Source of the DNA: Aurantiacibacter xanthus
Lineage (GTDB): Bacteria; Pseudomonadota; Alphaproteobacteria; Sphingomonadales; Sphingomonadaceae
DNA length: 64,000 bases
Direction of reading: 5' to 3'
Assembly (NCBI RefSeq): GCF_003584015.1
Contig: NZ_QXFM01000144.1
Coordinates: 1-64,000, forward strand
Shown: positions 1,481 to 59,957 of the stretch, one piece after another
How positions within the stretch are numbered: the stretch's first letter is position 1
Layout of the letters: each line of letters opens with the position of its first letter
Notes under the pieces: generated by a model
The model's input: only the letters and a program-made list of their open reading frames with translations
What the model was told of the DNA's origin: nothing
Database searches by the model: none
Program-made: the position numbers and the translations under genes

Positions 1481-1514
1481 GCGGGCCGAAATCGCGCCAC
1501 GAGAGGAGAAGACA

Positions 1515-3167: not shown

Positions 3168-3169
3168 TT

Positions 3170-42669: not shown

Positions 42670-44193
42670 TCAGCAATTCAGGGCCACTCCGACCGACTTC
42701 AGCTCGGTGTACAGTTCAATCGCACTCCACCCCATTTCGCGCCCCCAACCGGACTGACGGAAACCCCCGAACGGAAGAGCCGGATCGATCACATGGTGCG
42801 TGTTGATCCCGACCGTGCCAGCCTTGATCTTTTTCGCTACCGAATGCGCACGGTCGATATTTTGCGTGAACAGGCTCGCGGCAAGGCCGTAGATGCTGTT
42901 GTTCGCCTCCCGCACCGCGCTGGCGACATCGCCATCAGCAAAGGTGGAGGAGACGAGGACCGGGCCGAAGATCTCTTCCCTGACCACGGCCATATCGGGC
43001 CTTGTCTCGGCCAGGATCGTCGGCTGGACGAAATAGCCGACCTCTCCGTGGCGCTCACCACCGCAGAGCAATCTGGCACCCTCGGCTAAGCCCGAACGGA
43101 TATAGCCCAGCACCTTGTCCTGCTGCTCGGCCGAGACCAGCGGCCCGATCTGCGTCGCCGGGTCGAGACCCGGCCCGATCCGCAGGCCCTTCGCATGATC
43201 GGCCAGCGCCTCGTGCGCATGCTCGGCAATGCTCTCCTCGACATAGAGGCGGCTGCCGGCGGTGCAGGTCTGCCCCATGTTGTAAAAAATGCCGGAGGCG
43301 ATCGCCGGAATGGCCACATCGAGATCGGCATCGGCAAACAGGATCATGGGCGACTTTCCACCCAGCTCCAGCGAGACCTTCTTCAGATTGCCTTTTGCCG
43401 CATCGAGGATTTTCTTCCCGACCTCGGTCGAGCCGGTGAAGGCGACCTTGTCGACAGCATCGTGCGCGGCAAGCGCCGCCCCGACCTCCTCGCCAAGGCC
43501 CGTCACCACGTTGAAGACACCGTCCGGGAAGCCTGCTTCCTGCACGAGTTCGGCCAGCCGCAAGGCGGTCAGAGGCGTCTGCTCCGCCGGTTTGAGAACG
43601 ATGGTGCACCCGGTCGCCAGCGCCGGGGCGACTTTCCAGATCGCCATCATGAAGGAGAAATTCCACGGCACGATCTGCGCGCAGACCCCGACCGGCTCGC
43701 GCAGGGTATAGGCATGAAAGGCACTGGGCTGCGAAAGGGGGATCGTCTCGCCCGTCAGCTTCGTGCTCCAGCCGGCCATGTAGCGCAGCAGTTCGTGCGA
43801 AAAGGCCACATCGCCCCACCTCGCATCTGTCACCGGCTTGCCGTTGTCGATCGCCTCCAGTTCGGCCAGTTCGTCTGCATGGCGCTCGACCAGATCGCCC
43901 AGCCGCCACACCAGCTTGCCTCGCTCAGCAGGCGTCATCCTTGCCCAGGGCCCTTCGTCGAACGCCTTTCGCGCGGCGGCCACGGCAAGATCGACATCCG
44001 CCGCATTGCCCCGCGCGACGGTGGTGATCCGCTTGGCGGTCGCCGGATCGAGCACGTCGATCCGCGCCTCGCGCTGATGCCATTCGCCATCGATGAACAG
44101 GCCGCGATTGCGGGCGATAAAGGCTTGGGCCGCGTCTCCCAGACGCACAAGATTGGGGGTGGTTTCGGTCACGATCTGCGGTCTTCCTGTCAT
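42670..44193 (-). CDS. NAD-dependent aldehyde dehydrogenase (aminobutyraldehyde/phenylacetaldehyde type)
   Basis: This is a protein of about 507 residues with Asn178 (PWNF), Glu276 (LELGGKS), nucleophile Cys310 (MGQTCTAGSR), FTGSTEVGK, and C-terminal PFGGFRQSGWGREMGWSAIELYTELKSV. It belongs to the class-1/2-like ALDHs that include PuuC-type aminoaldehyde and FeaB-type arylacetaldehyde enzymes. In this cluster the 4-aminobutyraldehyde role would complete putrescine breakdown; that is inference. The start is uncertain: the ATG at 44193 sits just after a strong hairpin, and GTG 44172 has a better ribosome-binding site (AGGAAG). It is last in the minus-strand run. Confidence 0.87.
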   Translation of the reverse strand: MTGRPQIVTETTPNLVRLGDAAQAFIARNRGLFIDGEWHQREARIDVLDPATAKRITTVARGNAADVDLAVAAARKAFDEGPWARMTPAERGKLVWRLGDLVERHADELAELEAIDNGKPVTDARWGDVAFSHELLRYMAGWSTKLTGETIPLSQPSAFHAYTLREPVGVCAQIVPWNFSFMMAIWKVAPALATGCTIVLKPAEQTPLTALRLAELVQEAGFPDGVFNVVTGLGEEVGAALAAHDAVDKVAFTGSTEVGKKILDAAKGNLKKVSLELGGKSPMILFADADLDVAIPAIASGIFYNMGQTCTAGSRLYVEESIAEHAHEALADHAKGLRIGPGLDPATQIGPLVSAEQQDKVLGYIRSGLAEGARLLCGGERHGEVGYFVQPTILAETRPDMAVVREEIFGPVLVSSTFADGDVASAVREANNSIYGLAASLFTQNIDRAHSVAKKIKAGTVGINTHHVIDPALPFGGFRQSGWGREMGWSAIELYTELKSVGVALNC

Positions 44194-44197
44194 GGGA

Positions 44198-44224
44198 GGC
44201 TGCCCCACAACGGGTGGGGCAGCC
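44198..44224 (-). terminator. Strong intercistronic hairpin after the PAD gene
   Basis: On the minus strand GGCTGCCCCAC (44224-44214) and GTGGGGCAGCC (44208-44198) form a perfect 11-bp stem with a 5-base loop. No T-tract follows. It lies immediately before the aldehyde dehydrogenase start and may terminate, stabilise or attenuate the transcript. A weaker CTTCGC/GCGAAG hairpin precedes it at 44241-44258. Confidence 0.5.
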
Positions 44225-44269
44225 CTGTACATGCAGAGGACTTCGCAAAGTCGCGAAGACGTGGAAAGT

Positions 44270-44284
44270 CACCCCGGGGTGGTA
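44270..44284. promoter_or_regulatory. GC-rich operator of the ACCC-N5-GGGT family, upstream of the aldehyde dehydrogenase
   Basis: CACCCCGGGGTGGTA contains a 12-bp perfect palindrome (CACCCCGGGGTG, 44270-44281) and fits the pattern cACCC-N5-GGGTA with one mismatch. It is 77 bp upstream of the ATG at 44193. It is one of six related sites in the 44-60 kb region. Confidence 0.5.
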
Positions 44285-44297
44285 GGAGCGCGCGCGC

Positions 44298-46100
44298 TCA
44301 ACGCCACCACGCGTCACCGATTTCGCGCATGGCATTGGTGCCGCAATGCACTTCGCCGCCGAGAACGTGATGACTGCGCCAGTCGTCGACCGACCATGTC
44401 GTGATGCCAAGCTTCGCATAGGCCGCGCTGACCGCTTCGCCCAGCAGATCAACACCGTCGATCACCGGGCCCCACTGGCTTGGCATGATGTAATTGTGCC
44501 GATCCACCACCACGCCGTTCACAGCCGCCGGATAGTAGGCGATGAGCGTACCGGGGCCGTAGACGATTTCCTCGCGCGGCCAGTCGAGATCCGGCGGCAG
44601 CATTGGCGGCGGTGCGCCCTCCGTCAGGGCATCCTCCGGATCAACGGCAAATTCGGCGGTGTGGAACAGGCCGGGCACGCGCAGCACCTCGTCTTCGGTG
44701 ACACCCGTCTCTGCCATAAGGATGGCGAGGTTCAGCTCCACCCGCCGCCTTGCAAGCTCGTTCTTGCGCATCAGATCGTCGTCGGCCAGCACGTCGTCGA
44801 TGGTCAGCTCGTGGCCACCCGCGACGGAGAAAGCGGGGCGATCGCCGAAGCCGCGCCGCTGGGCATCGCGCAGCACTTCCAGACCGCTCGGCACATCCTT
44901 GATCGCAATCACCCAGCCGCGCGCGTTGTCGGTGGGCAGGAACTGCACGAACTCGTCGACATGGGCGATTGCCAGCCATGAGGTATCAAGCAGGATCGGA
45001 TCCTGCACCTCCTGCGCCTCGAAAAAGGACACCATGTCATGATGCGGCGACAGCCCGTCTCCGGCATCGCCATAGATCACGCGGCCGCCAGGATAGCGTC
45101 GTCCGTTCGTCTCGTAAGGCGGCACCGTTTCCAGATTGCCGAAGGAATCGGCCTGATGATAGTTGTCGCCGCCGATCTGCACCACGCCCACGCCGGGGCC
45201 GCGAAGGTCGAACAAGGCGCGCCCGGCTGAGCGCGTGGGCTGGGGAGAGCGGATCGCCACCCTGATGACCTTCATCGCGCCTTCAGGAGCGGGCATGGCC
45301 ATATAGCCGAACTCGACGAAGTCCTGCGCCCAGTTGTCGAAGGTGTCGATGATTTCGACCGGTTGCTGGAAACCGATCTGCGACAAGGTGCTGGAGAGGT
45401 CGGCAACAAATTGCTGGTGAGCCTTCGCGCGCCCACTCTTGACGGCGAAGATGCGGGTCGCATTCTGCGTGTGGTTGTGCAGCACCACCGGCGCAACACG
45501 CATGGCCACGCGATCGGAACGGGTCTGTCCCGCCGCGTCGACGGCAAGTTCGAGCGTGATGCGGCCATCCCAGACCGCAGCATCGCGCGCGACATCGCGC
45601 GCATCGACCCCGAGCTGCAATCCTGCGCGAAGGTCTTCGGCCGAAAGTCGATCCGTCGGGGCCAGGAATTTCCACCCCTCGCCTCGCTTGACGAATACGC
45701 GAATGTTCTGCGCCCCGGCGCCAACCGCAATCACGCGGCCAGTGGCGCCCTGTGCCACGTCAGCAATGGGCATCACCCGAACGGGCGCGAAGTACTCTGG
45801 AGCGCGGGCCTCCTCGCCCTGCGCATCGTTGCAGGCCTCCAGTTCGTCATCGCTGAGGTCGGTCTGCGCGGGCTTGGGGCAGCGGTTTGCCACATCGCCG
45901 ATATTCGCCAGCAAGATCGCGCCGCGATCGTCGCTCCACAGCGCCTTTCCGTCCCGGTCCGCCGCGTCGACAAGTCCGTCGCGGTTGGTGTCGGCCAGTA
46001 TCTCAGGCTCGACCGCATGGGCGCGCGCCGAAGCGCAGAGCATGGCTCCAGCCACACCGCAGAGCAGCATCTTCCTTCGTGCGACGTTGCAAGACCTCAT
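44298..46100 (-). CDS. Exported protein-arginine deiminase (PAD) family enzyme
   Basis: This is a 600-residue protein with a signal peptide (residues 1-29, cleavage after ARAHA) and an EF-hand-like calcium loop ADTNRDGLVDAADRD (residues 36-50). The C-terminal catalytic domain has all PAD active-site residues in context: Asp260 (DNWAQDF), His380 and Asp382 (AHVDEF), and nucleophile Cys586 (GEVHCGTNAMR), plus the PAD-type stretch GNLETVPPYETNGRRYPGGR. PADs convert peptidyl-arginine to citrulline and ammonia in a calcium-dependent way; bacterial members are uncommon. Whether this one acts on protein, peptide or a small guanidino compound is unknown. The start follows GGGAGGG; an operator-like palindrome is 59 bp upstream. 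Confidence 0.88.
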   Translation of the reverse strand: MRSCNVARRKMLLCGVAGAMLCASARAHAVEPEILADTNRDGLVDAADRDGKALWSDDRGAILLANIGDVANRCPKPAQTDLSDDELEACNDAQGEEARAPEYFAPVRVMPIADVAQGATGRVIAVGAGAQNIRVFVKRGEGWKFLAPTDRLSAEDLRAGLQLGVDARDVARDAAVWDGRITLELAVDAAGQTRSDRVAMRVAPVVLHNHTQNATRIFAVKSGRAKAHQQFVADLSSTLSQIGFQQPVEIIDTFDNWAQDFVEFGYMAMPAPEGAMKVIRVAIRSPQPTRSAGRALFDLRGPGVGVVQIGGDNYHQADSFGNLETVPPYETNGRRYPGGRVIYGDAGDGLSPHHDMVSFFEAQEVQDPILLDTSWLAIAHVDEFVQFLPTDNARGWVIAIKDVPSGLEVLRDAQRRGFGDRPAFSVAGGHELTIDDVLADDDLMRKNELARRRVELNLAILMAETGVTEDEVLRVPGLFHTAEFAVDPEDALTEGAPPPMLPPDLDWPREEIVYGPGTLIAYYPAAVNGVVVDRHNYIMPSQWGPVIDGVDLLGEAVSAAYAKLGITTWSVDDWRSHHVLGGEVHCGTNAMREIGDAWWR

Positions 46101-46158
46101 GGCACAACCCTCCCTTGGTTTCTGCGATAAGGGCATATGGTCGCGCACCCGAGCAAGT

Positions 46159-46173
46159 CCCCTGAAGGGGGTA
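46159..46173. promoter_or_regulatory. GC-rich operator of the ACCC-N5-GGGT family, upstream of the PAD gene
   Basis: CCCCTGAAGGGGGTA has perfect CCCCT/AGGGG arms around GA and, on the minus strand, begins TACCCC as the other members do. The spacing differs by one or two bases from the best sites. It lies 59 bp upstream of the PAD start, in the gap after the GabD gene. Confidence 0.45.
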
Positions 46174-46199
46174 GTTCGGCTACGCGCCGCCTCAGCCGG

Positions 46200-47672
46200 T
46201 CAGGACGGCTGAACCGCCAGACACCCGAGTTTGATATTCAGATAGTCGTCCATCCCGAGGTGCGATCCCTCGCGTCCAAGCCCGGACTCCTTGATGCCCC
46301 CAAAAGGCGCCACCTCGGTCGAGATGAGGCCGGTGTTCACGCCCACCATTCCGTATGCGAGCTGCTCCATCGTCCGCCATTGGCGCGAGGCATCGGCAGT
46401 ATAGACATAGGCGGCAAGGCCTGCCCTGCTGCGGTTGGCCAGCGCAATCGCCTCCCCCTCACTGGCGAACGGGGTGATCGCGGCGACCGGCCCAAAGGTC
46501 TCCTCGCGCCACAGCAAGGCATCGGGCGAAACCGCTGAAAGCACCGTAGGCGCGTAAAAGCGGTCGCCCGCCTGATGCTGCTCGCCGCCGCTGTGCAACA
46601 TCGCCCCGCCCGCAAGCGCGTCGCGCACATGGCGGCCAACCCTGTCTGCCGCAGACCTTGCAATGAGCGGGCCCTGGTCTGTGTTGCCGGCAAGGCCATT
46701 GCCGACCACAAAGCCTTCCACCGCAGCGCTCAAAGCCTCGGCGAAGGGCGCAACCATCGCTTCCTGAACGAGGAAGCGGTTTGCGCAAACGCAGGTCTGC
46801 CCGGAATTGCGGAACTTGGACGCCAACGCCCCCTTCACCGCTTCGGCAAGATCGGCGTCATCGAACACGATGAACGGCGCATTGCCTCCCAGTTCAAGGC
46901 TCACCCGCTTGACGGTGCCCATGCACTTGGCCGCCAGCATCTTGCCCACCGCGGTGGAGCCGGTGAAGGTAAACTTGTTCACCAGTTCGCTCGTGGTCAG
47001 CACCTCGCCGATGGCAGCCGCATCGCCCGTCACCACATTGAACACCCCCGGCGGAACCCCCGCCTCCTCGGCAAGCGCGGCCAGAGCCAGCGCCGAAAGA
47101 GGGGTCAGCTCCGAGGGCTTCACCACGAAAGTGCAGCCCGCCGCCAGCGCCGGCCCAGCCTTGCGCGTGATCATCGCGAGCGGAAAATTCCACGGCGTTA
47201 TCGCCGCCACCACGCCCACCGGCTGACGGAACACCAGCAATCGGCGATCGGCCTGATGCGGCGCGATCATCTCGCCCATCACCCTGCGCGCTTCCTCGGA
47301 AAACCACTCGAGAAATGCTGCGGCATAGCCGACCTCGCCCTTGGCCTCGGCCAGCGGCTTGCCTTGCTCGGCGGTCAGGATGGTGGCGAGATCGTCTGCA
47401 TGCTCGTTGAGAAGCTCGCCCCAGCGGCGCAGGATAACGCCGCGCTCCTTTGCCGGGCGCGCTTTCCACTCTGCCAGAGCCGCATTGGCTGCGGTTACGG
47501 CGCGCTCGGCTTCCCCTGCCCCGAGGTCGGGCACGTAGCCAAGAACGGCGTCCGTTGCGGGGTTGTCGACGGCGAGCCGCCGGTCTGCATCGACCCACGC
47601 ACCGCCGATGTAGGCCTCCTGACGCAGCAGCCGAGGCTGGCGCAACATAGCCGTCAGGTCGTGCGCCTGCAT
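46200..47672 (-). CDS. gabD: Succinate-semialdehyde dehydrogenase (GabD-like)
   Basis: This is a 490-residue ALDH with Asn162 (PWNFP), Glu260 (LELGGNAPF), nucleophile Cys294 in SGQTCVCANR, and the C-terminus ESGLGREGSHLGMDDYLNIKLGCL. The C-x-C active-site motif and the GREGSxxGxxDYLxIK ending are hallmarks of GabD rather than of general aldehyde dehydrogenases. It oxidises succinate semialdehyde to succinate. The ATG overlaps the GabT stop as TGATG. It is third in the alanine dehydrogenase, GabT, GabD run and completes the GABA shunt. Confidence 0.9.
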   Translation of the reverse strand: MQAHDLTAMLRQPRLLRQEAYIGGAWVDADRRLAVDNPATDAVLGYVPDLGAGEAERAVTAANAALAEWKARPAKERGVILRRWGELLNEHADDLATILTAEQGKPLAEAKGEVGYAAAFLEWFSEEARRVMGEMIAPHQADRRLLVFRQPVGVVAAITPWNFPLAMITRKAGPALAAGCTFVVKPSELTPLSALALAALAEEAGVPPGVFNVVTGDAAAIGEVLTTSELVNKFTFTGSTAVGKMLAAKCMGTVKRVSLELGGNAPFIVFDDADLAEAVKGALASKFRNSGQTCVCANRFLVQEAMVAPFAEALSAAVEGFVVGNGLAGNTDQGPLIARSAADRVGRHVRDALAGGAMLHSGGEQHQAGDRFYAPTVLSAVSPDALLWREETFGPVAAITPFASEGEAIALANRSRAGLAAYVYTADASRQWRTMEQLAYGMVGVNTGLISTEVAPFGGIKESGLGREGSHLGMDDYLNIKLGCLAVQPS

Positions 47673-48958
47673 CACAGTACCGATCCCGTGGCCGTGCTGG
47701 CGAGCGCATCTGCCAGCACGGCCAGCCCCTCCTCGATCAGGCTGTCTTCCGCCGTCAGCGGAACGAGGATGCGGATGGTTTCACCGCCCGCGCCGCATGA
47801 GAGCACGACCAGCCCGTTCTCGAGCGCGGCACGGATCACTGCCTTGGTCTGCGCACCATCGGGTTTGCCGTTCTTGTCGATGACATCGAACCCGATCATC
47901 GCACCCAGTCCGCGGACGTTGGCGACGGGCAAACCGGCGGTACACCAGCCGCGCAGGCGTTCCTTTATGGCCTGCCCGATGGCCTCGGCACGGGCGCACA
48001 GGCCGTCTTTCTCGATCACATCGAGCACGGCCAGGGCCGCAGCGCAGCCAACTGGCGAACCGCCATAGGTGCCGCCAAGCCCGCCCGGCTCGACCGCATC
48101 CATCACCTCAGCTTTGCCGATCACGCCGGACAGCGGAAAGCCGCCCGCCAATGACTTGGCGATACAGACAAGGTCCGGCTCGACGCCGCTGTGCTCGATC
48201 CCGAACAGCTTGCCGGTGCGCGCGAACCCGGCCTGCACCTCGTCAGCGATCAGCAGGATGCCGTGGGCATCGCAAAGCGTGCGCAGCGCGGCGAAAAACT
48301 CAGGCGGCGCGACGTGAAAACCGCCCTCGCCCTGCACCGGCTCGATGATGATGCAGGCCACCCGCTCGGGCTCGATATCGGTCGCGAAAAGCTGCGCGAT
48401 GGCGGCCAGCGAAGCCTCCACTCCCGCGCCATCCCGCCCGGTGGGGAAAGGCACATGGTAGACCTCGCCCGGCATGGGGCCGAAACCGCGCTTGTAGGGC
48501 GCGACCTTGCCGGTCATCGCCGATGCCAGCAAGGTGCGCCCGTGAAACGCGCCGCCAAAGGCGATCACCGCCGAGCGTCCGGTCGCCACGCGGGCGATCT
48601 TGACGGCGTTTTCGGTCGCTTCGGAGCCGGTGGTGAACAGGATTGCCTTCGCATCGCCGGAAAACGGCGCCCGCTCGACGAGCCGTTCGCAAAGGCGGAT
48701 GTAGGGCTCGTAGGCGGACACCTGAAAGGCGGTGTGGGTGAAGCGGTCAAGCTGGCCCTGCACCGCCTCCATCACCGCAGGGTTGCGATGCCCGGTGTTG
48801 AGCACGGCGATCCCGCCGGCAAAATCGATATACCGCCTGCCCTCGACATCCCACATTTGCGCGTTCTGCGCCTTGTCGATGAAGATCGCAGTGGCCGAAG
48901 CCACGCCGCGCGGCACAACCCGCTCACGGCGGGCCTGAAGGCTCTTGTTGTCGCTCAT
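47672..48958 (-). CDS. gabT: 4-aminobutyrate aminotransferase (GabT-like, class III, PLP)
   Basis: This is a 428-residue class III aminotransferase with the cofactor-binding GSEATENAVKIAR, FHGRTLLASAMTGK and IIEPVQGEGGF motifs, Asp239 in LLIADEVQAGFARTGK and Schiff-base Lys268 in CIAKSLAGGFPLSG. The E-P-V-Q-G-E-G and the opening RRERVVPRGVASA strongly match GABA aminotransferases. It converts GABA to succinate semialdehyde. The start overlaps the alanine dehydrogenase stop (ATGA); an upstream ATG at 49066 is not used. Confidence 0.9.
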   Translation of the reverse strand: MSDNKSLQARRERVVPRGVASATAIFIDKAQNAQMWDVEGRRYIDFAGGIAVLNTGHRNPAVMEAVQGQLDRFTHTAFQVSAYEPYIRLCERLVERAPFSGDAKAILFTTGSEATENAVKIARVATGRSAVIAFGGAFHGRTLLASAMTGKVAPYKRGFGPMPGEVYHVPFPTGRDGAGVEASLAAIAQLFATDIEPERVACIIIEPVQGEGGFHVAPPEFFAALRTLCDAHGILLIADEVQAGFARTGKLFGIEHSGVEPDLVCIAKSLAGGFPLSGVIGKAEVMDAVEPGGLGGTYGGSPVGCAAALAVLDVIEKDGLCARAEAIGQAIKERLRGWCTAGLPVANVRGLGAMIGFDVIDKNGKPDGAQTKAVIRAALENGLVVLSCGAGGETIRILVPLTAEDSLIEEGLAVLADALASTATGSVL

Positions 48959-50100
48959 TTGCCCTCTCCCGAAGCGGCCGCCGCGATGCCAAGCGCAGTT
49001 TCCGGCGACGTCCATTCCTCGCCAAGCTCGCGCGCCACCGGTTCGCAAGTGATCGCGCCATTCCACACGTTCAGCCCCTGACGCAGGTGCCCGTCGCGCC
49101 TGAGTGCCTCTTGCCAGCCGAGATCCGCCATCGCGATGACATGCGGCAAGGTCACTGCGTTAAGCGCATAGGTGCTGGTGCGCGCCACGGCGCCGGGCAT
49201 ATTGGCGACGCAGTAATGCACGATGCCATCGACGATATAGGTCGGATCGGCATGCGAGGTCGCCCGGGAAGTCTCGAAACATCCGCCCTGATCGATCGCG
49301 ACATCGACCAGCACCGCGCCCTTCTGCATGGTGGACAGCATTGCGCGCGTCACCATTTTCGGAGCCGATGCGCCGGGCACCAGCACCGCGCCGATCACGA
49401 GGTCGGCCTCGGCAACCAGCCGCTCGACCGCCGCCTGACTGGCGAAGGACGTCCGCGCCCGGTTTTCGAAATGGGTGGCGAGGCGCTCAAGCACCGCCGG
49501 ATTGCGGTCGACAATGGTGACTTCGGCGCCAAGCCCCACGGCCATCTGCGCCGCGTGGAAGCCCACCACGCCGCCGCCAAGGATCGTGACTCTGGCCGGA
49601 AGCACGCCGGGCACGCCGCCCAGAAGCACGCCGCGACCGCCATGCACCTTCTGCAAGGCGGTCGCGCCTGCCTGAGCGGACATTCGCCCGGCAACCTGGC
49701 TCATCGGCTTCAGCAAGGGCAGACCGCCAGCGGCATCGGTCACCGTCTCATAGGCGATGCAGGTTGCGCCAGACTTGACCAGATCATGCGTCTGCGCCGG
49801 ATCGGGCGCGAGATGCAGATAGGTGAAGAGAACCTGCCCCGGACGCAGCATGGCGCGCTCGACAGGCTGAGGCTCCTTGACCTTGACGATCATCTCGGCC
49901 TCGTCGAACACGGCCCTGGCGTGATCGCGGATCTCGGCTCCCGCGGCGAGATAGGCTTCGTCGGTGGCATCGATGCCCGAGCCCGCCCCCGTCTCCACCA
50001 GCACCCTGTGGCCTCGCGCTGTAAGCTCCATCACGCTTTCGGGCGCAAGACCCACCCGGTCTTCCTGGCTCTTAATTTCCCGCACAGTTCCGATAATCAT
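48955..50100 (-). CDS. ald: Alanine dehydrogenase
   Basis: This is a 381-residue enzyme starting MIIGTVREIKSQEDRVGLAP. Residues Arg15, Lys75 and His96, which bind substrate in characterised alanine dehydrogenases, fall at the same numbers here. The nucleotide fold VTILGGGVVGFHAAQMAVGLGAEVT and the catalytic region VLVDVAIDQGGC follow. It interconverts L-alanine and pyruvate plus ammonia with NAD. Being coupled to GabT, and close to a SpuC-like pyruvate-dependent aminotransferase, it probably recycles alanine to pyruvate during amine breakdown. It diverges from the amidohydrolase gene. Confidence 0.92.
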   Translation of the reverse strand: MIIGTVREIKSQEDRVGLAPESVMELTARGHRVLVETGAGSGIDATDEAYLAAGAEIRDHARAVFDEAEMIVKVKEPQPVERAMLRPGQVLFTYLHLAPDPAQTHDLVKSGATCIAYETVTDAAGGLPLLKPMSQVAGRMSAQAGATALQKVHGGRGVLLGGVPGVLPARVTILGGGVVGFHAAQMAVGLGAEVTIVDRNPAVLERLATHFENRARTSFASQAAVERLVAEADLVIGAVLVPGASAPKMVTRAMLSTMQKGAVLVDVAIDQGGCFETSRATSHADPTYIVDGIVHYCVANMPGAVARTSTYALNAVTLPHVIAMADLGWQEALRRDGHLRQGLNVWNGAITCEPVARELGEEWTSPETALGIAAAASGEGK

Positions 50101-50220
50101 TCCCGCATTCCGCCCTGCTGCTGATTTGGCTGCGGATTGATTGCCACGGGCGGCGCGCACTTTCTTGTCCCCCCGTGGTGTTAGCTTCCGGCCTTCAAGG
50201 GCGTTTGCGAGAGGCGGGTG

Positions 50221-50237
50221 TAACCCCTCTGGGGGAA
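50221..50237. promoter_or_regulatory. GC-rich operator-like site between alanine dehydrogenase and amidohydrolase genes
   Basis: TAACCCCTCTGGGGGAA has CCCC/GGGG arms around TCT. It lies centrally in the 254-bp divergent gap, about 120 bp from each start codon, and could serve both promoters. It is a looser member of the ACCC-N5-GGGT family. Confidence 0.45.
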
Positions 50238-50354
50238 TGTCCTGCCCGGACCTCGGAGCATAGCCTCGGCCGTAAGAGTAGCTCCCGGAGAACAGGCGAC
50301 ACATCCAGGCCACTCGCACCATGCAAACAGAGCAAGATATCGAGGAGAACACCC

Positions 50355-52103
50355 ATGACTGCCTATCGCTCGCCCCAAGGACTTCTCGGCAAGGCCGGAT
50401 GGGCAATGTCGACATCGCTGGGGGCCTTGCTGTTCGCAACGCCTGCGCTGGCCGGGCCCGATCTCATTGTCGTCAACGGCGACGTCTATACCGTCGATGA
50501 AGAATATCCGCGTGCAGAGGCCTTTGCGGTCGAAGATGGCAAGTTCACCGCTATCGGCACGAACGAGGAAATCCGCGCGCTCGCCGATAGCGAAACCGAG
50601 GTTATCGACGCGGGCGGCCACACGGTCACGCCCGGCTTCATCGATTCCCATGCGCACTTCAGCGGCGATAGCAATCGGCTCAATCTCTATGTGCAGTCGC
50701 ACGAAGAGTGGGCGCGGCTGATCCGTGAAGAGAACGAGCGCCTCGCCCCCGGCGAATGGCTGCTGGGCAGCAACTGGGATCACACGATCATCGACGATGT
50801 CCTGCCGACCAAGGAATTCCTCGACGCAATCGTGGGCGACCGTCCCGCCGTCCTTACCCATATCGACGGCCACTTTGTCTGGGTAAACTCCGCCGTGATC
50901 AAATTGGCCGGTATCACCGCCGATACGCCGGTTCCGCCGGGCGGACAGATCGTGGTCGACCCCGAAACGGGCGAGCCCACCGGTATCCTGAAGGAAGGCG
51001 CGGTAGACCTCGTGCGCGCGCTCATCCCGCGCCCGACCGACGAGCAACGCTATGCCGCGCTGCCCGCCGCGATCCACTATGCCAACAGCCTCGGCATCAC
51101 CGGCATGCACAACATGGCCGCCTATGACGACTGGCTGCATGTGTTGCAGGATGGCGGCCTGACGATGCGCATGTGGCATGGTTTCTTCGGCGGCTTCGAT
51201 CCGGCCAAGGACCCGATGCGCCAGCCCGGCAGCATGGAGGAAAAGGTCGCCAACCTGCACGCCGAGCAGCAGCGCGTGCGCGCTCTGGTCGAAGCAACCG
51301 GCTTCGAGGACGAGGTCGGGCCGCTGTTCGAAATGGGCTTCGTCAAGCTGATCAACGACGGTGTCCTGTCGGTTCATACCGCCGTTCTGCTTGACGCCTA
51401 CCGCGACCAGCCGGGGTGGACCGGCGCATGGTTCGTCGAGCCGGAAGATCTTGCGACAGAGGTCTCGGCACTGGAAGCTGGCGGGTTTCAGGTCGCCATT
51501 CACTCGATCGGCGACGGCGCTGTCCATGCCTCGCTCGACGCCTATGAGAAGGCCCGCGCCGGCAGCACCGCGACGCTGCCGATGCGGATCGAGCATGTCG
51601 AACTGCTGAGCAAGGAAGACCTGCCGCGCTTCAACGAACTGAACGTGGTCGCCTCGATGACGCCGAACCACATGACCAAGGCCGTGGCCTATATCGAGGA
51701 ACGGATCGAACCGGCACGCGAAGACCGCGCCTATACCTGGCAGTCGCTGATCGACACCGGCGCCACGGTCATGTTCGGTGCCGACGGCACGACCTCGATG
51801 TACCTCGATCCGCTCAAGCAGATGGGCGATGCGATGTATCGCACCAACCACGTCGGCTTCAACGAGGGAGAGCCGTGGCACTCCGAGCAGGCGCTGACCT
51901 TCGCGCAGGCGCTTAAGGCCTACACGCTCTCGCCCGCGCAAACGACGAGCTGGGGCGATCAGATCGGCTCGATCACCCAAGGCAAGTGGGCCGACTTTGT
52001 CATCCTTGGTGGAACGGTGGGCGAGCCGGTCGACCCGCAGATCTTCGACATGGGGATCAAGGCGACCTATTTCGCAGGCCGTCCGGTGTTCGAGGCCGAA
52101 TAA
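50355..52103 (+). CDS. Exported amidohydrolase, family 3 (YtcJ/NfdA-like)
   Basis: This is a 582-residue metal-dependent hydrolase with a signal peptide (cleavage after ATPALA). It shows the entry strand DLIVVNGDVYTVDE, the metal motif GFIDSHAHFSG, GITGMHNMA, IHSIGDGAVHASLDAYE (His), RIEHVELL (His) and the Asp in MFGADGTTS. Family members deformylate or hydrolyse amide, formyl or ring bonds; the substrate is unpredictable. The start follows GAGGAGAA. A strong bidirectional terminator follows. Periplasmic location is shared with the PAD enzyme in this cluster. Confidence 0.87.
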   Translation: MTAYRSPQGLLGKAGWAMSTSLGALLFATPALAGPDLIVVNGDVYTVDEEYPRAEAFAVEDGKFTAIGTNEEIRALADSETEVIDAGGHTVTPGFIDSHAHFSGDSNRLNLYVQSHEEWARLIREENERLAPGEWLLGSNWDHTIIDDVLPTKEFLDAIVGDRPAVLTHIDGHFVWVNSAVIKLAGITADTPVPPGGQIVVDPETGEPTGILKEGAVDLVRALIPRPTDEQRYAALPAAIHYANSLGITGMHNMAAYDDWLHVLQDGGLTMRMWHGFFGGFDPAKDPMRQPGSMEEKVANLHAEQQRVRALVEATGFEDEVGPLFEMGFVKLINDGVLSVHTAVLLDAYRDQPGWTGAWFVEPEDLATEVSALEAGGFQVAIHSIGDGAVHASLDAYEKARAGSTATLPMRIEHVELLSKEDLPRFNELNVVASMTPNHMTKAVAYIEERIEPAREDRAYTWQSLIDTGATVMFGADGTTSMYLDPLKQMGDAMYRTNHVGFNEGEPWHSEQALTFAQALKAYTLSPAQTTSWGDQIGSITQGKWADFVILGGTVGEPVDPQIFDMGIKATYFAGRPVFEAE

Positions 52104-52115
52104 TCGGCAAACCTG

Positions 52116-52153
52116 TTGCTCCCCGGAAAAGGCGGCCTTTTTCCGGGGAGCAA
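52116..52153. terminator. Bidirectional rho-independent terminator
   Basis: TTGCTCCCCGGAAAA (52116-52130) and its exact complement TTTTCCGGGGAGCAA (52139-52153) form a 15-bp stem with an 8-base loop. The A/T ends give a T-run in either direction. It separates the convergent amidohydrolase and M20 hydrolase genes. Confidence 0.85.
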
Positions 52154-52161
52154 TCGATCCG

Positions 52162-53406
52162 CTAGCCGATTGTCACCCCGGCAAGCGTTGCCACCGCTTT
52201 CAACAACACGTTCGCGCCCGCTTCGAGGTCTGCCGGTTCCGCCGACTCCAGCTCGTTATGGCTAAGGCCATCGGCGCAGGGCACGAAGATCATCGCGGTG
52301 GGCGCAAACTGCGCGGTGTGGAGGCTGTCGTGCCCTGCCCCGCTGACCAGCCGCATATGCGCATAGCCGAGCGCTCCGGCAGCCTGCTCTATCGCATCCA
52401 CCAGATGCGGCGCGAAGGCGGTCGGCGGCATGTGCCACACCTCTTCGAGCGCGAAGTCCACCTCGGCCTCGGCACAGGCCGTCTCGATGATCCGGCGCAT
52501 GTCCGCCTCCATCGCGGCAAGCACATCGGCATCGGGATGGCGGATGTCGAGGCTGAGCGAGAGCGTGTGCGGCACCGTGTTGCGCGCGCCCGGTCGCGCG
52601 GAGATATCGCCAATCGTCGCCCGCCCCCAGGGCGCCTGTGCATCGGCCAGCGCCAGCACCTGCGATACGATGGGCGCAACTGCGCGCCATGGGTCCTTGC
52701 GCATGGTCATCGGGGTCGGCCCTGCGTGGGCGGACTGCCCGATTACCTTCAGATCGAACCAGTGGGCGCCCTGAATGCCGGTCACCACTCCGATGGTCTT
52801 TTCCTCTGCCTCGAGGATCGGCCCCTGCTCGATATGCGCTTCGAGCATCGCGGCATAGGGCCTTGGCGAGGCCGGAACCTCGCCGCGATAGCCGATCCGC
52901 TCCAGCTCGTCGCCCAGGCGCAAGCCTTCCTTGTCGGTCGCGGCGTAGGCATCTTCGAGCGAATAGGTGCCGCTCATCACGCCCGATCCCAGCATGGCAG
53001 GAGCAAACCGGCATCCCTCCTCGTTGGTCCAGACGGCAACTTCCAAAGGGTTCGCAAAGCGCGCCTGCGCATCGACCAGCGTGCGCACCACTTCCAGCCC
53101 TGCGAGCACGCCATAGACCCCGTCGAACTTGCCTCCGGTTGCCTGAGTATCGAGGTGGCTGCCCATCAGGACCGGCTCTGCGGAAGGATCGCTGCCTTCC
53201 AGCCGGGCGAAGATGTTGCCGATCGCGTCCACGGTGATGGAACACCCGGCGGCCTCGGCCCATGCCACAAACAGATCGCGCCCTTCCTTGTCGTGATCGG
53301 TCAGGGCCTGCCGATTGCAGCCGCCTTTGTCGGTCGCGCCGATTGCCGCCATTTGCATCAGGCTGTCCCACAGCCGTGCGCCGTCAATTTTGGGATCATC
53401 GCTCAT
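52162..53406 (-). CDS. M20-family amidase (N-carbamoyl-L-amino acid hydrolase/allantoate amidohydrolase type)
   Basis: This is a 414-residue cytoplasmic dinuclear-metal hydrolase with ligands in GSHLDTQATGGKFDG, VWTNEEGCRF, LEAHIEQGP and GLSHNE, plus the substrate-binding GAGHDS and RNTVPHTLSLSLDIRHPD. These are hallmarks of the hydantoinase/carbamoylase branch, which removes a carbamoyl group giving amine, CO2 and ammonia. In this cluster the substrate might be a carbamoylated amine or amino acid derived from a guanidino compound; that is inference. It diverges from the aminotransferase gene, with two GC-rich operators between. Confidence 0.88.
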   Translation of the reverse strand: MSDDPKIDGARLWDSLMQMAAIGATDKGGCNRQALTDHDKEGRDLFVAWAEAAGCSITVDAIGNIFARLEGSDPSAEPVLMGSHLDTQATGGKFDGVYGVLAGLEVVRTLVDAQARFANPLEVAVWTNEEGCRFAPAMLGSGVMSGTYSLEDAYAATDKEGLRLGDELERIGYRGEVPASPRPYAAMLEAHIEQGPILEAEEKTIGVVTGIQGAHWFDLKVIGQSAHAGPTPMTMRKDPWRAVAPIVSQVLALADAQAPWGRATIGDISARPGARNTVPHTLSLSLDIRHPDADVLAAMEADMRRIIETACAEAEVDFALEEVWHMPPTAFAPHLVDAIEQAAGALGYAHMRLVSGAGHDSLHTAQFAPTAMIFVPCADGLSHNELESAEPADLEAGANVLLKAVATLAGVTIG

Positions 53407-53474
53407 CTACCGCGTCCTTGTGCTGCTCTGGTGCAAAGCTCCAGTGTGACCGCTTGAGCGACCGGCTTTCAAGC

Positions 53475-53489
53475 TACCCCGAGAGGGTA
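53475..53489. promoter_or_regulatory. Best match of the ACCC-N5-GGGT operator family
   Basis: TACCC-CGAGA-GGGTA has perfect five-base arms. It lies 69 bp upstream of the M20 hydrolase start and 118 bp upstream of the aminotransferase start. The sequence GGGTAC at its end is shared with the site at 59943. Confidence 0.6.
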
Positions 53490-53518
53490 CATCTGCACCG
53501 CATGCCACGCCCCTCGCA

Positions 53519-53534
53519 TACCCCTTTGGGGGGA
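53519..53534. promoter_or_regulatory. ACCC-N5-GGGT family operator upstream of the aminotransferase
   Basis: TACCCCTTTGGGGGGA has CCCC/GGGG arms and reads CCC-CAAAG-GGGTA on the minus strand. It is 73 bp upstream of the aminotransferase ATG. Two such sites 44 bp apart serve this divergent promoter. Confidence 0.55.
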
Positions 53535-53606
53535 CTATCGGCATTCTCCATGCGCATTAGTCTCGGCACCAAGAAATCCTGCTGATGTATTTTTGGGAGC
53601 GAAGTA

Positions 53607-54998
53607 ATGGACAGTACCGCGAAATCGGATGCCTGGCGTGCTGATCGGGATCACTTCCTGCATCCTTACACCGACTTCACGACGTTTCAGGATAGCGGCA
53701 GCCAGGTCGTCAGCCATGGCGATGCGATGTACATCGTCGACGAGGCTGGGCGCTCCTACCTTGATGGTATTGCCGGCCTGTGGTGTGTGAACCTTGGCCA
53801 TGGCAGAAGCGAAATTGCCCAGGCCATGGGCGATCAGGCGCAGCAACTGGGCTATTTCAACACCTTCGGCCATTCGACGAACACGCCCGCCGCGCTGCTC
53901 GCCCGGCAACTGGCCGAGCGCACGCCGGGAGACCTCAACCACGTCTTCTTCACCACGGGCGGCTCCACTGCCAACGACACGGCGATCCGGCTGGCGCATT
54001 ACTATTTCAACCGGCTGGGCAAGCCGAAGAAGAAGAAGATCCTCGCCCGCAACGGCGGCTATCACGGTTCGACCTATTTCGCCGCAGCGCTGACTGGCAT
54101 TCACGGCATCCACTACGGCTTCGACCGAATTGCCGAGGACATCGTCCATCATCTGTCGGCGGCCAATTGCTATCGCCGACCCGAAGGCATGGACGAAGCG
54201 CAGTTCTGCGATTTCCTGATCGACGAAGCCCGCCATCGGATCGAGCAACTGGGCGCGGACAACATCGCCGCCTTTATCGCCGAACCGGTGATGGGGGCTG
54301 GCGGCGTGCTCGTGGCACCCGAAGGCTATCACCGCCGGATGGCCGAGGTCTGCCAGCAAAACGACATTCTCTACATTGCCGACGAAGTCGTCACGGGTTT
54401 TGGCAGGCTCGGCCACTGGTTCGCCTCGGAAGACCGGTTCGGCCATGTGCCCGATATCCTCATCACCGCGAAGGGGCTGAGTTCGGGCTATTGTCCGATC
54501 GGCGCGGCGGTGTTCTCCGAGCGGATGTATGAGGTGATCAGCAAGCCGCAGGGGCCCGGCGGGGTGTTGAGCCACGGCTTCACCTATTCGGGCCACCCGG
54601 TCTCATGCGCCGCGGCGCTGAAGTCCATCGAGCTGTACGAGCGGGAAGACATCTTCGGCAAGGTTCGCGATACCGGGCCCTATCTCCAGCAGCAGCTGAA
54701 GCGCCTTTCGCGCCATGACGTTGTGGGCGATATACGCGGAGATCATCTGATGGCGGGGGTCGAACTGGTGTCGGATCGCGATGCCAAACGCAATTTCCCG
54801 CCGGACCTTGCCGCCGCCGAAGTGGTGTTCGGCCGGGCCCGCGACTATGGCGTCATCGTGCGCCCGGTCGGTGATACGATCATTCTGTCACCGCCCCTGA
54901 TCATCTCGCGCGAACAGGTGGATACGCTTGTCGATAGTCTCGATCAGGCCATCGAGGATGTTTCGGGGCAACTGATGTCGAGGGCTGCAGCATCGTGA
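53607..54998 (+). CDS. Omega-amino acid/polyamine:pyruvate aminotransferase (SpuC-like, class III, PLP)
   Basis: This is a 463-residue class III aminotransferase opening with FLHPYTDFTTF and LDGIAGLWCVNLGHGR, typical of the putrescine/beta-alanine:pyruvate group. Cofactor motifs are TTGGSTANDTAIRLA, NGGYHGSTYFAAALTG, Asp259 in IADEVVTGFGRLG and Schiff-base Lys289 in ITAKGLSSGY. It would convert a terminal diamine or monoamine with pyruvate to an aldehyde and alanine. The nearby alanine dehydrogenase and PuuP-like permease favour putrescine or a relative; other amines remain possible. Confidence 0.87.
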   Translation: MDSTAKSDAWRADRDHFLHPYTDFTTFQDSGSQVVSHGDAMYIVDEAGRSYLDGIAGLWCVNLGHGRSEIAQAMGDQAQQLGYFNTFGHSTNTPAALLARQLAERTPGDLNHVFFTTGGSTANDTAIRLAHYYFNRLGKPKKKKILARNGGYHGSTYFAAALTGIHGIHYGFDRIAEDIVHHLSAANCYRRPEGMDEAQFCDFLIDEARHRIEQLGADNIAAFIAEPVMGAGGVLVAPEGYHRRMAEVCQQNDILYIADEVVTGFGRLGHWFASEDRFGHVPDILITAKGLSSGYCPIGAAVFSERMYEVISKPQGPGGVLSHGFTYSGHPVSCAAALKSIELYEREDIFGKVRDTGPYLQQQLKRLSRHDVVGDIRGDHLMAGVELVSDRDAKRNFPPDLAAAEVVFGRARDYGVIVRPVGDTIILSPPLIISREQVDTLVDSLDQAIEDVSGQLMSRAAAS

Positions 54999-55018
54999 GC
55001 GCGCAGGGGACGCGCGCT
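54998..55018. terminator. Short bidirectional terminator hairpin
   Basis: AGCGCGC (54998-55004) and GCGCGCT (55012-55018) form a 7-bp stem with a 7-base loop exactly between the stop codons of the convergent aminotransferase and LuxR genes. There is no clear T-run. Confidence 0.5.
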
Positions 55019-55836
55019 TAGAAATTCTTGCGGAAGAACATCGAATAGATCTCCCGCGTGCTGCGCGTTCCCAGTTTGCGATTGATCCGCTTGCGGTAGA
55101 CTTTCACCGTCTCGTGGCTGATCCCCAGTTCGCGGCCGATCATCTTGTTCGAGAAGCCGCGCAACAGGTGCCCGGTCACTTCCACCTCGCGGCCGACAAG
55201 CCCGCGTGCCCGACACATGCTCTGCAGGTTCTCGGCAGAATTGGATGCGATGGTCGAAAGGCTTGACCATTGCCGATACATCAGTTCCCGAATTGCCGGG
55301 AACAGCGCCCGCAATTCGCTGAGCTGGCCGCGCTTCCTGTCCCCCTCTTCCGAGGCGCGAATTCCCAACATCGTCACCAGGCAGATCTGCTTGCTCAGGC
55401 GCACGAATATCCCGCATTCGTCGGTCAGGCCGGTCGTGGCATAGAACGTGAGGTAGTACTCACTCTTGCGAAAGCCGTCGGGCACGCATTCGGAGAAGCG
55501 GTAGACACCGTCCTCGATCTGGGAACTGGCCATGTTGTACCAGGGATCGAGCAGGTAGGTGCCATCGAAATAGGGGCGCAGCGTTGTCCCCTCTTCCTCC
55601 GCATTGAGATTGCTGAACAGCCGCACCGGCTTGGTGCTCTCGGAAAGGGCAGCAACGACGGTCGAGGTATAGCCGCTTAGCCCTTCGAGCATATCGGCCA
55701 GACGCTCCCCAAACCCGTTCGAGCCGACAGACGAAATCGCCAGTGCAAGCGGGGCCGATACACTCTCCAGCAACGGATCCGGGTCATCGCCGCGGCGCGG
55801 CCTGCGACGTTTCGGAGGGCTTTCCGGCTGATTCAT
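55018..55836 (-). CDS. LuxR-family transcriptional regulator
   Basis: This is a 272-residue protein. The C-terminal LuxR/GerE helix-turn-helix occupies residues 211-266 (GREVEVTGHLLRGFSNKMIGRELGISHETVKVYRKRINRKLG). The N-terminal 200 residues have no receiver-domain phosphorylation site and no recognisable acyl-homoserine-lactone pocket, so this is a stand-alone regulator with an unknown ligand domain. The start at 55836 (MNQPES) is followed by a basic stretch. It lies 31 bp downstream of the permease, last in the TonB-permease-regulator run, and is the likely reader of the six GC-rich palindromes. Confidence 0.85.
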   Translation of the reverse strand: MNQPESPPKRRRPRRGDDPDPLLESVSAPLALAISSVGSNGFGERLADMLEGLSGYTSTVVAALSESTKPVRLFSNLNAEEEGTTLRPYFDGTYLLDPWYNMASSQIEDGVYRFSECVPDGFRKSEYYLTFYATTGLTDECGIFVRLSKQICLVTMLGIRASEEGDRKRGQLSELRALFPAIRELMYRQWSSLSTIASNSAENLQSMCRARGLVGREVEVTGHLLRGFSNKMIGRELGISHETVKVYRKRINRKLGTRSTREIYSMFFRKNF

Positions 55837-55867
55837 CCGATGCAACACCTTGCCTGCACGATTACGA

Positions 55868-57208
55868 TCACCCCGGCTGCGACAAAGCCGATGAAGAGGA
55901 CTTGCGCGCGAAACTCGTGATAAGCCCGACACCCAGCCACAGCAAGCCAACCGTCAGCGCCAGCCACGACAGGCTGAACCACAGCCAGATGGTAAGCAGC
56001 AAGCCGATGATCGGGCATACAAGGTATCGCAGCACCGAGACAGCGGACCTCTGCTCAAGACGGTCGCGGAAGATGACAGGCACCGAGAGGTTGACCATGG
56101 AAAAGGCGAACAGGGCGCCGAAGCTGATCAGCGAAGCGAGGCTTTCCAGGGAGGCAACAACGGCGACCAGCGAAAAGAGCGCCACGGTGAGAATGGCATA
56201 GGTCGGGGTACTGAAGCGCCGATCGAGGTGCCCGAACCAGGCCTTTGGCAGTTGCCCTTCCCGGCCCATTGCAAACAGCACCCGCGAGACGCTGGCCTGC
56301 GAAGCAATGGCAGAAGCGATGCACCCGGCGAGATAGGCCGCGATGAAGGCTGCCGAGATGACGGGTCCGAGCGGGGCCATCACCTCCAGCCCTGCCGTAT
56401 CGGCCGACGCCAAATGGTGCCAATCCCCGATTACCAGCGCGCCCGCATAGGACAGCACGATGAACAGCGCACCGCCGATCAGCGCGGTCAGCAAAATCGC
56501 CCGAGGCACGGTGCGCTGCGGATCGCGGGCCTCTTCCGACAGTGTCGAGACTGCATCGAAGCCCAGGAACGAAAGGCACAGGATCGCGGCACCGGCCAAC
56601 AACCCGTTCCATTCGAGGCCCGGGGAATAGAAAGGCGCGATCACCGGCACCGTCTCCTCACGCAGGAATACGATCGCGACGAAGGCTACCGCGAAGACGA
56701 TCTGGCCGACCACCAGAATCAGGCTGGCACGCTTCACCACGTCGACCCCGACGATATTCAGCGTTGTGACCAGGGCGATGGCCGCCACTATGAAGATCGC
56801 GCTCGGAATCGCGGGGAACTGTGCGTTGAGATAGATACCGATGATCAGGTAGTTGATCGCCGGCAGCAGCAGATAGTCGAGCAACAAGGTCCACCCTGTC
56901 ACGAACCCGGTTCGCCGGCCGAAGGCCGACGAGACATAGGCGAAGGCCGATCCGGCCGAGGGGATCTTGCGGACAAGTGCAGCATAACTCAGCGCGGTGA
57001 AAAGCATCGCGATTGTCGTGATGACATAGGCGAGCGGGAGATGACCCTGCGTTATCTCCGTTGCCGTGCCAAAGGTCGTGAAGACGGTCAGAGGCACCAG
57101 ATAGGCCAGCCCGAACATGGTGAGCGAGAACGTGCCCATCACGCGGCTAAGCCTGGGATCGGTGTCTTGTGGATGCGAACTGGCCGTATCGCGCGAGGTA
57201 ACTGTCAT
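55868..57208 (-). CDS. APC-family amino acid/polyamine permease, PuuP-like
   Basis: This is a 446-residue membrane protein with about twelve helices. The segments MFGLAYLVPLTVFTTFG, GHLPLAYVITTIAMLFTALSYAALVRKIPSAGSAFAYV and GFVTGWTLLLDYLLLPAINYLIIGIYL run closely parallel to the E. coli putrescine importer PuuP. It imports an amine or amino acid, and by this resemblance putrescine is the first candidate. The start at 57208 follows GGAGATACTGTC. It lies between the TonB receptor and LuxR genes on one strand. Confidence 0.85.
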   Translation of the reverse strand: MTVTSRDTASSHPQDTDPRLSRVMGTFSLTMFGLAYLVPLTVFTTFGTATEITQGHLPLAYVITTIAMLFTALSYAALVRKIPSAGSAFAYVSSAFGRRTGFVTGWTLLLDYLLLPAINYLIIGIYLNAQFPAIPSAIFIVAAIALVTTLNIVGVDVVKRASLILVVGQIVFAVAFVAIVFLREETVPVIAPFYSPGLEWNGLLAGAAILCLSFLGFDAVSTLSEEARDPQRTVPRAILLTALIGGALFIVLSYAGALVIGDWHHLASADTAGLEVMAPLGPVISAAFIAAYLAGCIASAIASQASVSRVLFAMGREGQLPKAWFGHLDRRFSTPTYAILTVALFSLVAVVASLESLASLISFGALFAFSMVNLSVPVIFRDRLEQRSAVSVLRYLVCPIIGLLLTIWLWFSLSWLALTVGLLWLGVGLITSFARKSSSSALSQPG

Positions 57209-57237
57209 GACAGTATCTCCGTCCTTTCCGGAATGCC

Positions 57238-57271
57238 GGGAGCCGCCACTGCAAGGCAATGGCCGGCTCCC
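57238..57271 (-). terminator. Intercistronic hairpin between TonB receptor and permease genes
   Basis: GGGAGCC (57238-57244) pairs with GGCTCCC (57265-57271), extended inward by GCCA/TGGC with one bulged base. It fills the 75-bp gap and may partly terminate after the receptor gene or stabilise its mRNA. Confidence 0.5.
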
Positions 57272-57283
57272 TGACATTTTGCA

Positions 57284-59839: not shown

Positions 59840-59942
59840 TCCCGAATTCCCCCCTATGTTTCGGTAGGTTGATGATCCGTTCCTGACCTGCGTGTCTTTT
59901 TGACTTGAGGAATAGTCCCCCTCACCCATCCGATCAGCAAGT

Positions 59943-59957
59943 CACCCTGCGGGGGTA
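59943..59957. promoter_or_regulatory. ACCC-N5-GGGT family operator upstream of the TonB-permease-LuxR operon
   Basis: CACCC-TGCGG-GGGTA matches the spacing of the site at 53475 exactly, and both continue with C (GGGTAC). It is 104 bp upstream of the receptor ATG, implying that the LuxR gene in this operon is autoregulated. Confidence 0.55.

Follow-up and report, generated by a model that had tools for sequence, protein, structure and literature searches.

Protein-arginine deiminases (PADs, or PADIs) are best known for acting on arginyl substrates. Agmatine is handled by the AguA/AguB deiminase pathway, in which guanidine is turned into carbamoyl and then into amine by cytosolic enzymes, and the route from putrescine through GABA to succinate is run by SpuC, KauB, GabT and GabD. 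In the passages of Cummings et al. 2021 (PMC8826395) that concern PADIs outside animals, two-domain PADIs are placed in actinobacteria, fungi and some Proteobacteria and are described without PAD_N and PAD_M matches. The same passages assign PPAD of Porphyromonas gingivalis to an extended agmatine-deiminase type that is distantly related to PAD_C and lacks PAD_M and PAD_N, and bacterial and fungal PADIs are called there fertile ground for investigation.

The window, which is the whole stretch of 64,000 nucleotides of Aurantiacibacter xanthus DNA that was analysed, carries a PAD gene that appears to be part of a catabolic regulon, because the same neighbour genes stand beside a PAD in Novosphingobium and a common dyad precedes them. 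The predicted product is a member of the known PAD family, of the two-domain type, and what is new is its functional setting, a catabolic gene cluster with a common dyad. With the two-domain PADIs it shares a PAD_C domain without detectable PAD_N and the same catalytic residues, and it is set apart from them by its tie to a catabolic cluster and an operator-like dyad and by the sequence HNH at residues 208-210. The three-domain PADIs of animals and cyanobacteria (human PAD1-4) have the same predicted fold, four catalytic residues and calcium-loop region, whereas the window PAD lacks PAD_N and any detected PAD_M and has Gly303 opposite an Asp of PAD4. The chemistry proposed here for the cluster, guanidine to carbamoyl to amine, is that of AguA/AguB, but the enzyme families are different. 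Downstream the enzyme families are those of the SpuC/KauB/GabT/GabD route, to which the window adds the PAD, an M20 amidase, an amidohydrolase, a LuxR regulator and a TonB receptor. Like PPAD, the window PAD would be an exported bacterial citrullinating enzyme. The cluster extends from 42670 to 59957 and comprises the following genes and dyad sites.

42670..44232, minus strand: aldehyde dehydrogenase (ALDH), nearest to the phenylacetaldehyde/betaine-aldehyde type
44298..46100, minus strand: PAD, two-domain protein-arginine deiminase, putatively exported (by eye), assigned by profile, PDB matches, alignment and model
46158..46173, no strand: dyad TACCC-N6-GGGTA, one mismatch, 57 bp before the PAD start codon
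46200..47675, minus strand: GabD, ALDH of the succinate-semialdehyde dehydrogenase type
47672..48958, minus strand: GabT, 4-aminobutyrate aminotransferase (TIGR00700 above cut-off)
48955..50100, minus strand: alanine dehydrogenase, AlaDH (TIGR00518 above cut-off)
50355..52103, plus strand: Amidohydro_3 amidohydrolase with a signal-peptide-like start (by eye)
52162..53406, minus strand: M20 carbamoylase-type amidase
53475..53489, no strand: dyad TACCC-N5-GGGTA, exact, between the M20 and aminotransferase genes
53519..53534, no strand: dyad TACCC-N6-GGGTA, one mismatch, in the same intergenic space
53607..54998, plus strand: class III omega-aminotransferase (NF005447 above cut-off)
55018..55950, minus strand: LuxR-family regulator (GerE), with 59-60% orthologues in two Novosphingobium
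55868..57277, minus strand: APC-superfamily amino-acid permease
57284..59929, minus strand: TonB-dependent receptor
59943..59957, no strand: dyad TACCC-N5-GGGTA, one mismatch, upstream of the TonB receptor

The open frame claimed in the initial annotation, which named no strand, is present on the minus strand, with an ATG at 46100, a stop at 44298 and a length of 600 aa. In the PAD-domain profile search proposed there, the protein scored 348.6 bits for PF03068, whose cut-off is 25 (E=6.1e-104; residues 194-599, profile positions 3-394 of 395), and all 27 distinct PDB sequences matched by phmmer at E<=0.01 were PAD1, 2, 3, 4 or 6. No match to PF04371 (AguA) was obtained in the protein, where PF03068 and a weak DUF5632 were the only families found at E<=1. 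D260, H380, D382 and C586, which had been named as the active site, proved to be numbered exactly; they align with the PAD4 motifs and each is identical in 85/85 aligned PADs (the window PAD, 80 loci of a species scan, three plasmid loci and locus L002). The EF-hand-like loop that had been noted, D37-x-N39-x-D41-G42-x-V44-x-x-x-D48, is real and conserved, with D37, D41 and G42 in 84/85 rows and D48 in 81/85, one row being without this end. It is not an added EF-hand, however, and represents the PAD's own calcium-loop region, because residues 37-48 align to the region where the middle domain begins in L002, an animal-type PAD. Neither PAD_M nor PAD_N of Pfam matched the window PAD at E<=1, and PAD_N was likewise without a match in the type-I-like L002; there is no room for PAD_N in the window protein, since the calcium loop starts already at residue 37. 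A putative signal peptide was recognized by eye (RR, a hydrophobic stretch, AHA|VE).

Structural modelling, which the initial annotation had also mentioned, agreed with the profile result. The AlphaFold model (29 aligned sequences; mean pLDDT 82.4, pTM 0.84) had human PAD4 as its best PDB match in Foldseek (E=5.4e-41, TM 0.74/0.70), and the first 50 PDB rows comprised 48 named PAD entries and two mouse egg-lattice entries, of which 12dl contains PAD6 according to phmmer against the PDB. The structure alignments cover about 600 columns, at 20-24% identity to animal PADs. At the domain junction, where the window PAD reads HNH, the majority of the 85 aligned PADs carry three histidines. Gly303 faces an Asp of PAD4 in the phmmer alignment (Asp388 by offset), which we take to be the calcium switch of that enzyme. 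In PAD2 the calcium switch is Asp389, as stated in a passage of PMC8826395. Loss of the switch was considered as a marker of two-domain PADs and was dropped, Asp being the commonest residue at that column (45/85).

The PAD gene is co-oriented with AlaDH, GabT and GabD upstream and with the ALDH gene downstream, all on the minus strand. AlaDH and GabT overlap by ATGA, and the gaps are about 100 bp between GabD and PAD and about 65 bp between PAD and ALDH. GABA-shunt and aldehyde dehydrogenase genes do flank the PAD, as first annotated, although the relevant cluster is larger. Curated NCBIfam cut-offs were passed by GabT, AlaDH, M20 and the aminotransferase, M20 exceeding the thresholds of both the hydantoinase/carbamoylase and the allantoate amidohydrolase models; GabD, at 637.7, lies just under the SSADH cut-off of 646.35.

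In Novosphingobium piscinae the PAD stands in a cluster with two amidohydrolases and with genes for TonB (56% identity to the window's), APC (59%), LuxR (59%), ALDH (73%, over 447 of the 520 residues of the window enzyme), aminotransferase (70%), M20 (64%), GabD (66%) and GabT (63%). The cluster of N. taihuense is shorter and holds PAD, an amidohydrolase, APC (59%), LuxR (59%), aminotransferase (69%) and M20 (66%), so that PAD, M20 and aminotransferase are in the core common to all three. No AlaDH was found in either Novosphingobium cluster, and the N. taihuense stretches read held no orthologue of GabT, GabD or ALDH, the best ALDH-family match there being 40%. The amidohydrolases adjoining the PADs are of the same family as the window's, at 29-31% identity for the two of N. 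piscinae and 28% for that of N. taihuense; judged by these values of 28-31%, the amidohydrolases of the three clusters are non-orthologous. Flanks and gene order differ between N. piscinae and N. taihuense, and the PAD lies at different genomic places; the linkage of PAD and cluster is for this reason not simply one inherited locus. A PAD needs no such pathway in general, because the three Hyphomonadaceae PAD loci (3/3) had no cluster orthologue beside the PAD, and no gene family recurred, by crude gene calls, as a PAD neighbour in more than nine of the best 80 loci, 75 of them actinobacterial.

Several further genes were seen around these clusters. An N-carbamoylputrescine amidase gene, aguB, lies about 1 kb before the N. 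piscinae PAD (L011:8078-8938; TIGR03381, 439 bits vs 410). It was dropped as pathway evidence and left out of the case made here because a folK-like frame (by eye) intervenes and aguB may be housekeeping. In the N. taihuense cluster a gene next to M20 encodes a tannase/feruloyl esterase family protein (L013:19189-20910), which hints at conjugates of plant phenolics. Frames that by eye resemble a puuB/puuP/puuD/puuA putrescine set lie at L097:15444-20000, some 25 kb away from the PAD of this species. Window 650-4381 and L097:1-6212 share an aromatic-ring-hydroxylase-like FAD protein (71%), a carboxylesterase (64%) and a beta-lactamase-fold hydrolase (42%), a set that recurs in this way near the N. 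taihuense PAD cluster. An RPE65/carotenoid-oxygenase family protein at window 25373-27013 is 38% identical to one in L097 and is surrounded by PQQ dehydrogenase, GMC oxidoreductase, P450 and sulfatase genes.

Comparison of the promoter regions yielded the dyad TACCC-N5/6-GGGTA. It precedes the PAD in 3/3 genomes (57, 78 and 80 bp from the start codon), the M20/aminotransferase pair in 3/3 and, in the two genomes whose cluster includes one, the TonB receptor. With up to one mismatch, ten distinct sites were found in eight sequences that total 207,552 bp and overlap by a few kb, all of the sites being upstream of cluster genes. The dyad figures are post hoc, because the dyad was derived from these regions and then counted in them: among 12,288 arm/spacer pairs it ranks top, at eight of nine promoter regions, with its own shifted register as the sole tie, the pairs at five or six regions being registers or one-letter variants of it and the remaining arms reaching four at most. 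Genome-wide, the cluster holds 4/45 sites in the source genome, 3/37 in N. piscinae and 3/35 in N. taihuense, where 0.18, 0.17 and 0.07 would be expected. All three exact sites of the two Novosphingobium genomes lie in the cluster, two of them before the PAD. In the source genome one of four exact sites does so, the other three being in or between genes that seem unrelated by eye, and 41 of the 45 sites with up to one mismatch lie outside the cluster. The dyad is rarer genome-wide than its backward-read control, both with N5 (16, 24 and 19 vs 111, 105 and 118) and with N6 (29, 14 and 16 vs 76, 47 and 92). In the window alone, with two mismatches and a spacer of 5, 15 dyads were counted vs 9.9 expected, and 6/100 shuffles were as high. 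A scan for sigma-70 promoters and terminators gave nothing above shuffles. As for a regulon, both a regulator gene within the cluster and a dyad common to its promoters were seen, and the LuxR protein may be what binds the dyad.

The LuxR gene was also followed as a marker of the cluster. An orthologue was found in one of 397 genomes of the family, which is the source genome, and in 3/14 PAD-bearing genomes, the source genome and the two Novosphingobium. Matches above 300 bits occurred in 2/195 Novosphingobium genomes, the same two that have a PAD, and one further genome (G853) gave a weak match of 67 bits. In a class sample of 347 genomes, 13 of the 346 others matched, at no more than 119 bits and 34% identity. 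Absence of the regulator is not absolute in these counts, because only the first few candidates per genome were scored (5, 11 or 6 in most). Versions of the cluster without a PAD were sought in six regions from five of the 13 class genomes and the weak match G853, and were rejected, as no region had a match to PAD, M20 or APC. One of these regions has a 47% aminotransferase homologue, another has aminotransferase homologues below 35%, and that of G853 has a partial TonB match of 32%.

Bacterial PADs are uncommon, as had been claimed. PF03068 is present in 1/40 genomes of the source genus, in 2/195 Novosphingobium genomes, in 2/385 genomes of the class sample, the second one under the cut-off, and in 3/397 family genomes. 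The three family PADs are of three different kinds: that of the source genome, an animal-like one with PAD and PAD_M, and a divergent one of 951 aa. The animal-like PAD (L002:652-2715, genome G278) has both domains above the Pfam cut-off and PAD1 as its best PDB match (E=2.5e-111), and a frame for a trypsin-like protease stands before it; the occurrence in this bacterial family of a PAD resembling those of animals and cyanobacteria would represent a further transfer. The 951-aa protein (L004:196-3051, genome G184) has four separate PAD-domain stretches and is a strongly divergent, enlarged PAD. When 84,980 species were scanned, each by a single genome, 262 stretches fitted the search pattern and 198 relatives emerged, and the best 80 of the 198 comprised five alphaproteobacterial PADs at 57-58% identity and 75 actinobacterial ones at no more than 47%. 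In the phylogeny, which had likewise been proposed at the outset, the window PAD falls in a clade of six alphaproteobacterial sequences (SH-aLRT 99) nested among the actinobacterial rows of an 85-PAD tree that is quick, midpoint-rooted, without fungal rows and has several long branches. The nearest relatives outside the clade are actinobacterial, and the tree is compatible with a transfer from actinobacteria. Other origins were considered and rejected: four actinobacterial plasmids have PADs, but distant ones, and phages gave no match, with none of 30 viral-contig stretches that fit the pattern being confirmed.

We consider it somewhat probable that the PAD is an exported enzyme which opens the guanidine in a dedicated catabolic pathway under LuxR control, leading from a compound with an agmatine-type core to succinate; export, activity, substrate and the order of steps are inferred. 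The TonB receptor would take up a guanidino compound with a 4-guanidinobutylamine core, free or amide-linked, and in the periplasm the PAD would hydrolyse the guanidine to a ureido group and ammonia. The amidohydrolase, putatively exported by eye, may free the core from its acyl partner, and the APC permease would bring the product into the cell. There the omega-aminotransferase (pyruvate to alanine) and the ALDH would convert the free amine end to a carboxylate, the M20 amidase would strip the carbamoyl group to leave GABA, GabT would give the semialdehyde and GabD succinate, with alanine dehydrogenase regenerating pyruvate and ammonia. By their predicted activities, these enzymes would together suffice for the whole conversion of an agmatine-type compound to succinate. 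An absent AguA as the reason for the PAD was ruled out, AguA being encoded elsewhere in 6/6 PAD-bearing genomes tested, including the source genome (contig C105). As AguA is present in all six, the PAD is not needed to fill a gap in agmatine breakdown and would therefore serve an external or conjugated substrate, which fits the putative export, seen by eye, of PAD and amidohydrolase. A PAD4 structure with benzoyl-L-arginine amide exists (PDB title), and acyl-agmatine, a benzoyl-arginine-amide-like compound minus the carboxamide, is an attractive candidate substrate class. It is rather doubtful that PAD and amidohydrolase act together in the periplasm on acyl-agmatines (for instance the hydroxycinnamoyl-agmatines of plants), with the PAD a nutrient enzyme and small-molecule catabolism native to two-domain PADs.

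The core of PAD, M20 and aminotransferase suits the sequence guanidine, ureido, amine, aldehyde on any backbone, and the PAD could instead convert arginine or arginyl peptides, the best-known substrates of its family, to citrulline. M20 would then yield ornithine, the aminotransferase and ALDH would pass it through glutamate semialdehyde to glutamate, and GabT and GabD would serve another amine. M20 carbamoylases, however, typically attack a ureido group close to a carboxylate and here would have to act on a distal one, and GabT and GabD would be left over despite their place in the string of the window PAD and in the N. piscinae cluster; we regard this route as doubtful. GabT, GabD and M20 would also suit N-carbamoyl-GABA, so that a cluster serving a different guanidino substrate (4-guanidinobutyrate, for example, or a natural product with a guanidino group), with the PAD as one of several entry enzymes, is conceivable and would agree with AguA being located elsewhere. 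It would leave the omega-aminotransferase and the ALDH without work, and we hold it to be very improbable.

A different job altogether would be citrullination of extracytoplasmic proteins or peptides, of the cell's own envelope or of neighbours, with the place in the cluster due to shared regulation or chance. The protein matches peptidyl-arginine deiminases in sequence and predicted fold, PADs stand free of the cluster in Hyphomonadaceae and, by crude gene calls, in actinobacteria, and PMC8826395 has a cyanobacterial PAD of the other type citrullinating proteins. Against this, the linkage recurs amid differing flanks and gene orders and the dyad precedes the PAD in 3/3 genomes, which makes chance unlikely, and protein citrullination appears to us an unlikely function of this gene. 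The nutritional, small-molecule setting suspected in the initial annotation has gained comparative support, with the same genes beside a PAD in two Novosphingobium and a common predicted operator, and the catabolic pathway for an agmatine-type compound is the reading that we retain.

This comparison of genomes suggests a dietary rather than a protein-editing job for the window PAD. In a literature search that covered few subscription journals, no paper joined 'protein-arginine deiminase' and Novosphingobium, and none of the titles listed concerned a PAD encoded within a catabolic cluster. The present context predicts a function for a PAD outside animals, together with a small set of candidate substrates. 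If the proposal is true, this would be a PAD working in nutrition, which would offer a reason for the spread of such genes between bacteria and a basis for comparison on the origin of peptidyl-arginine specificity.
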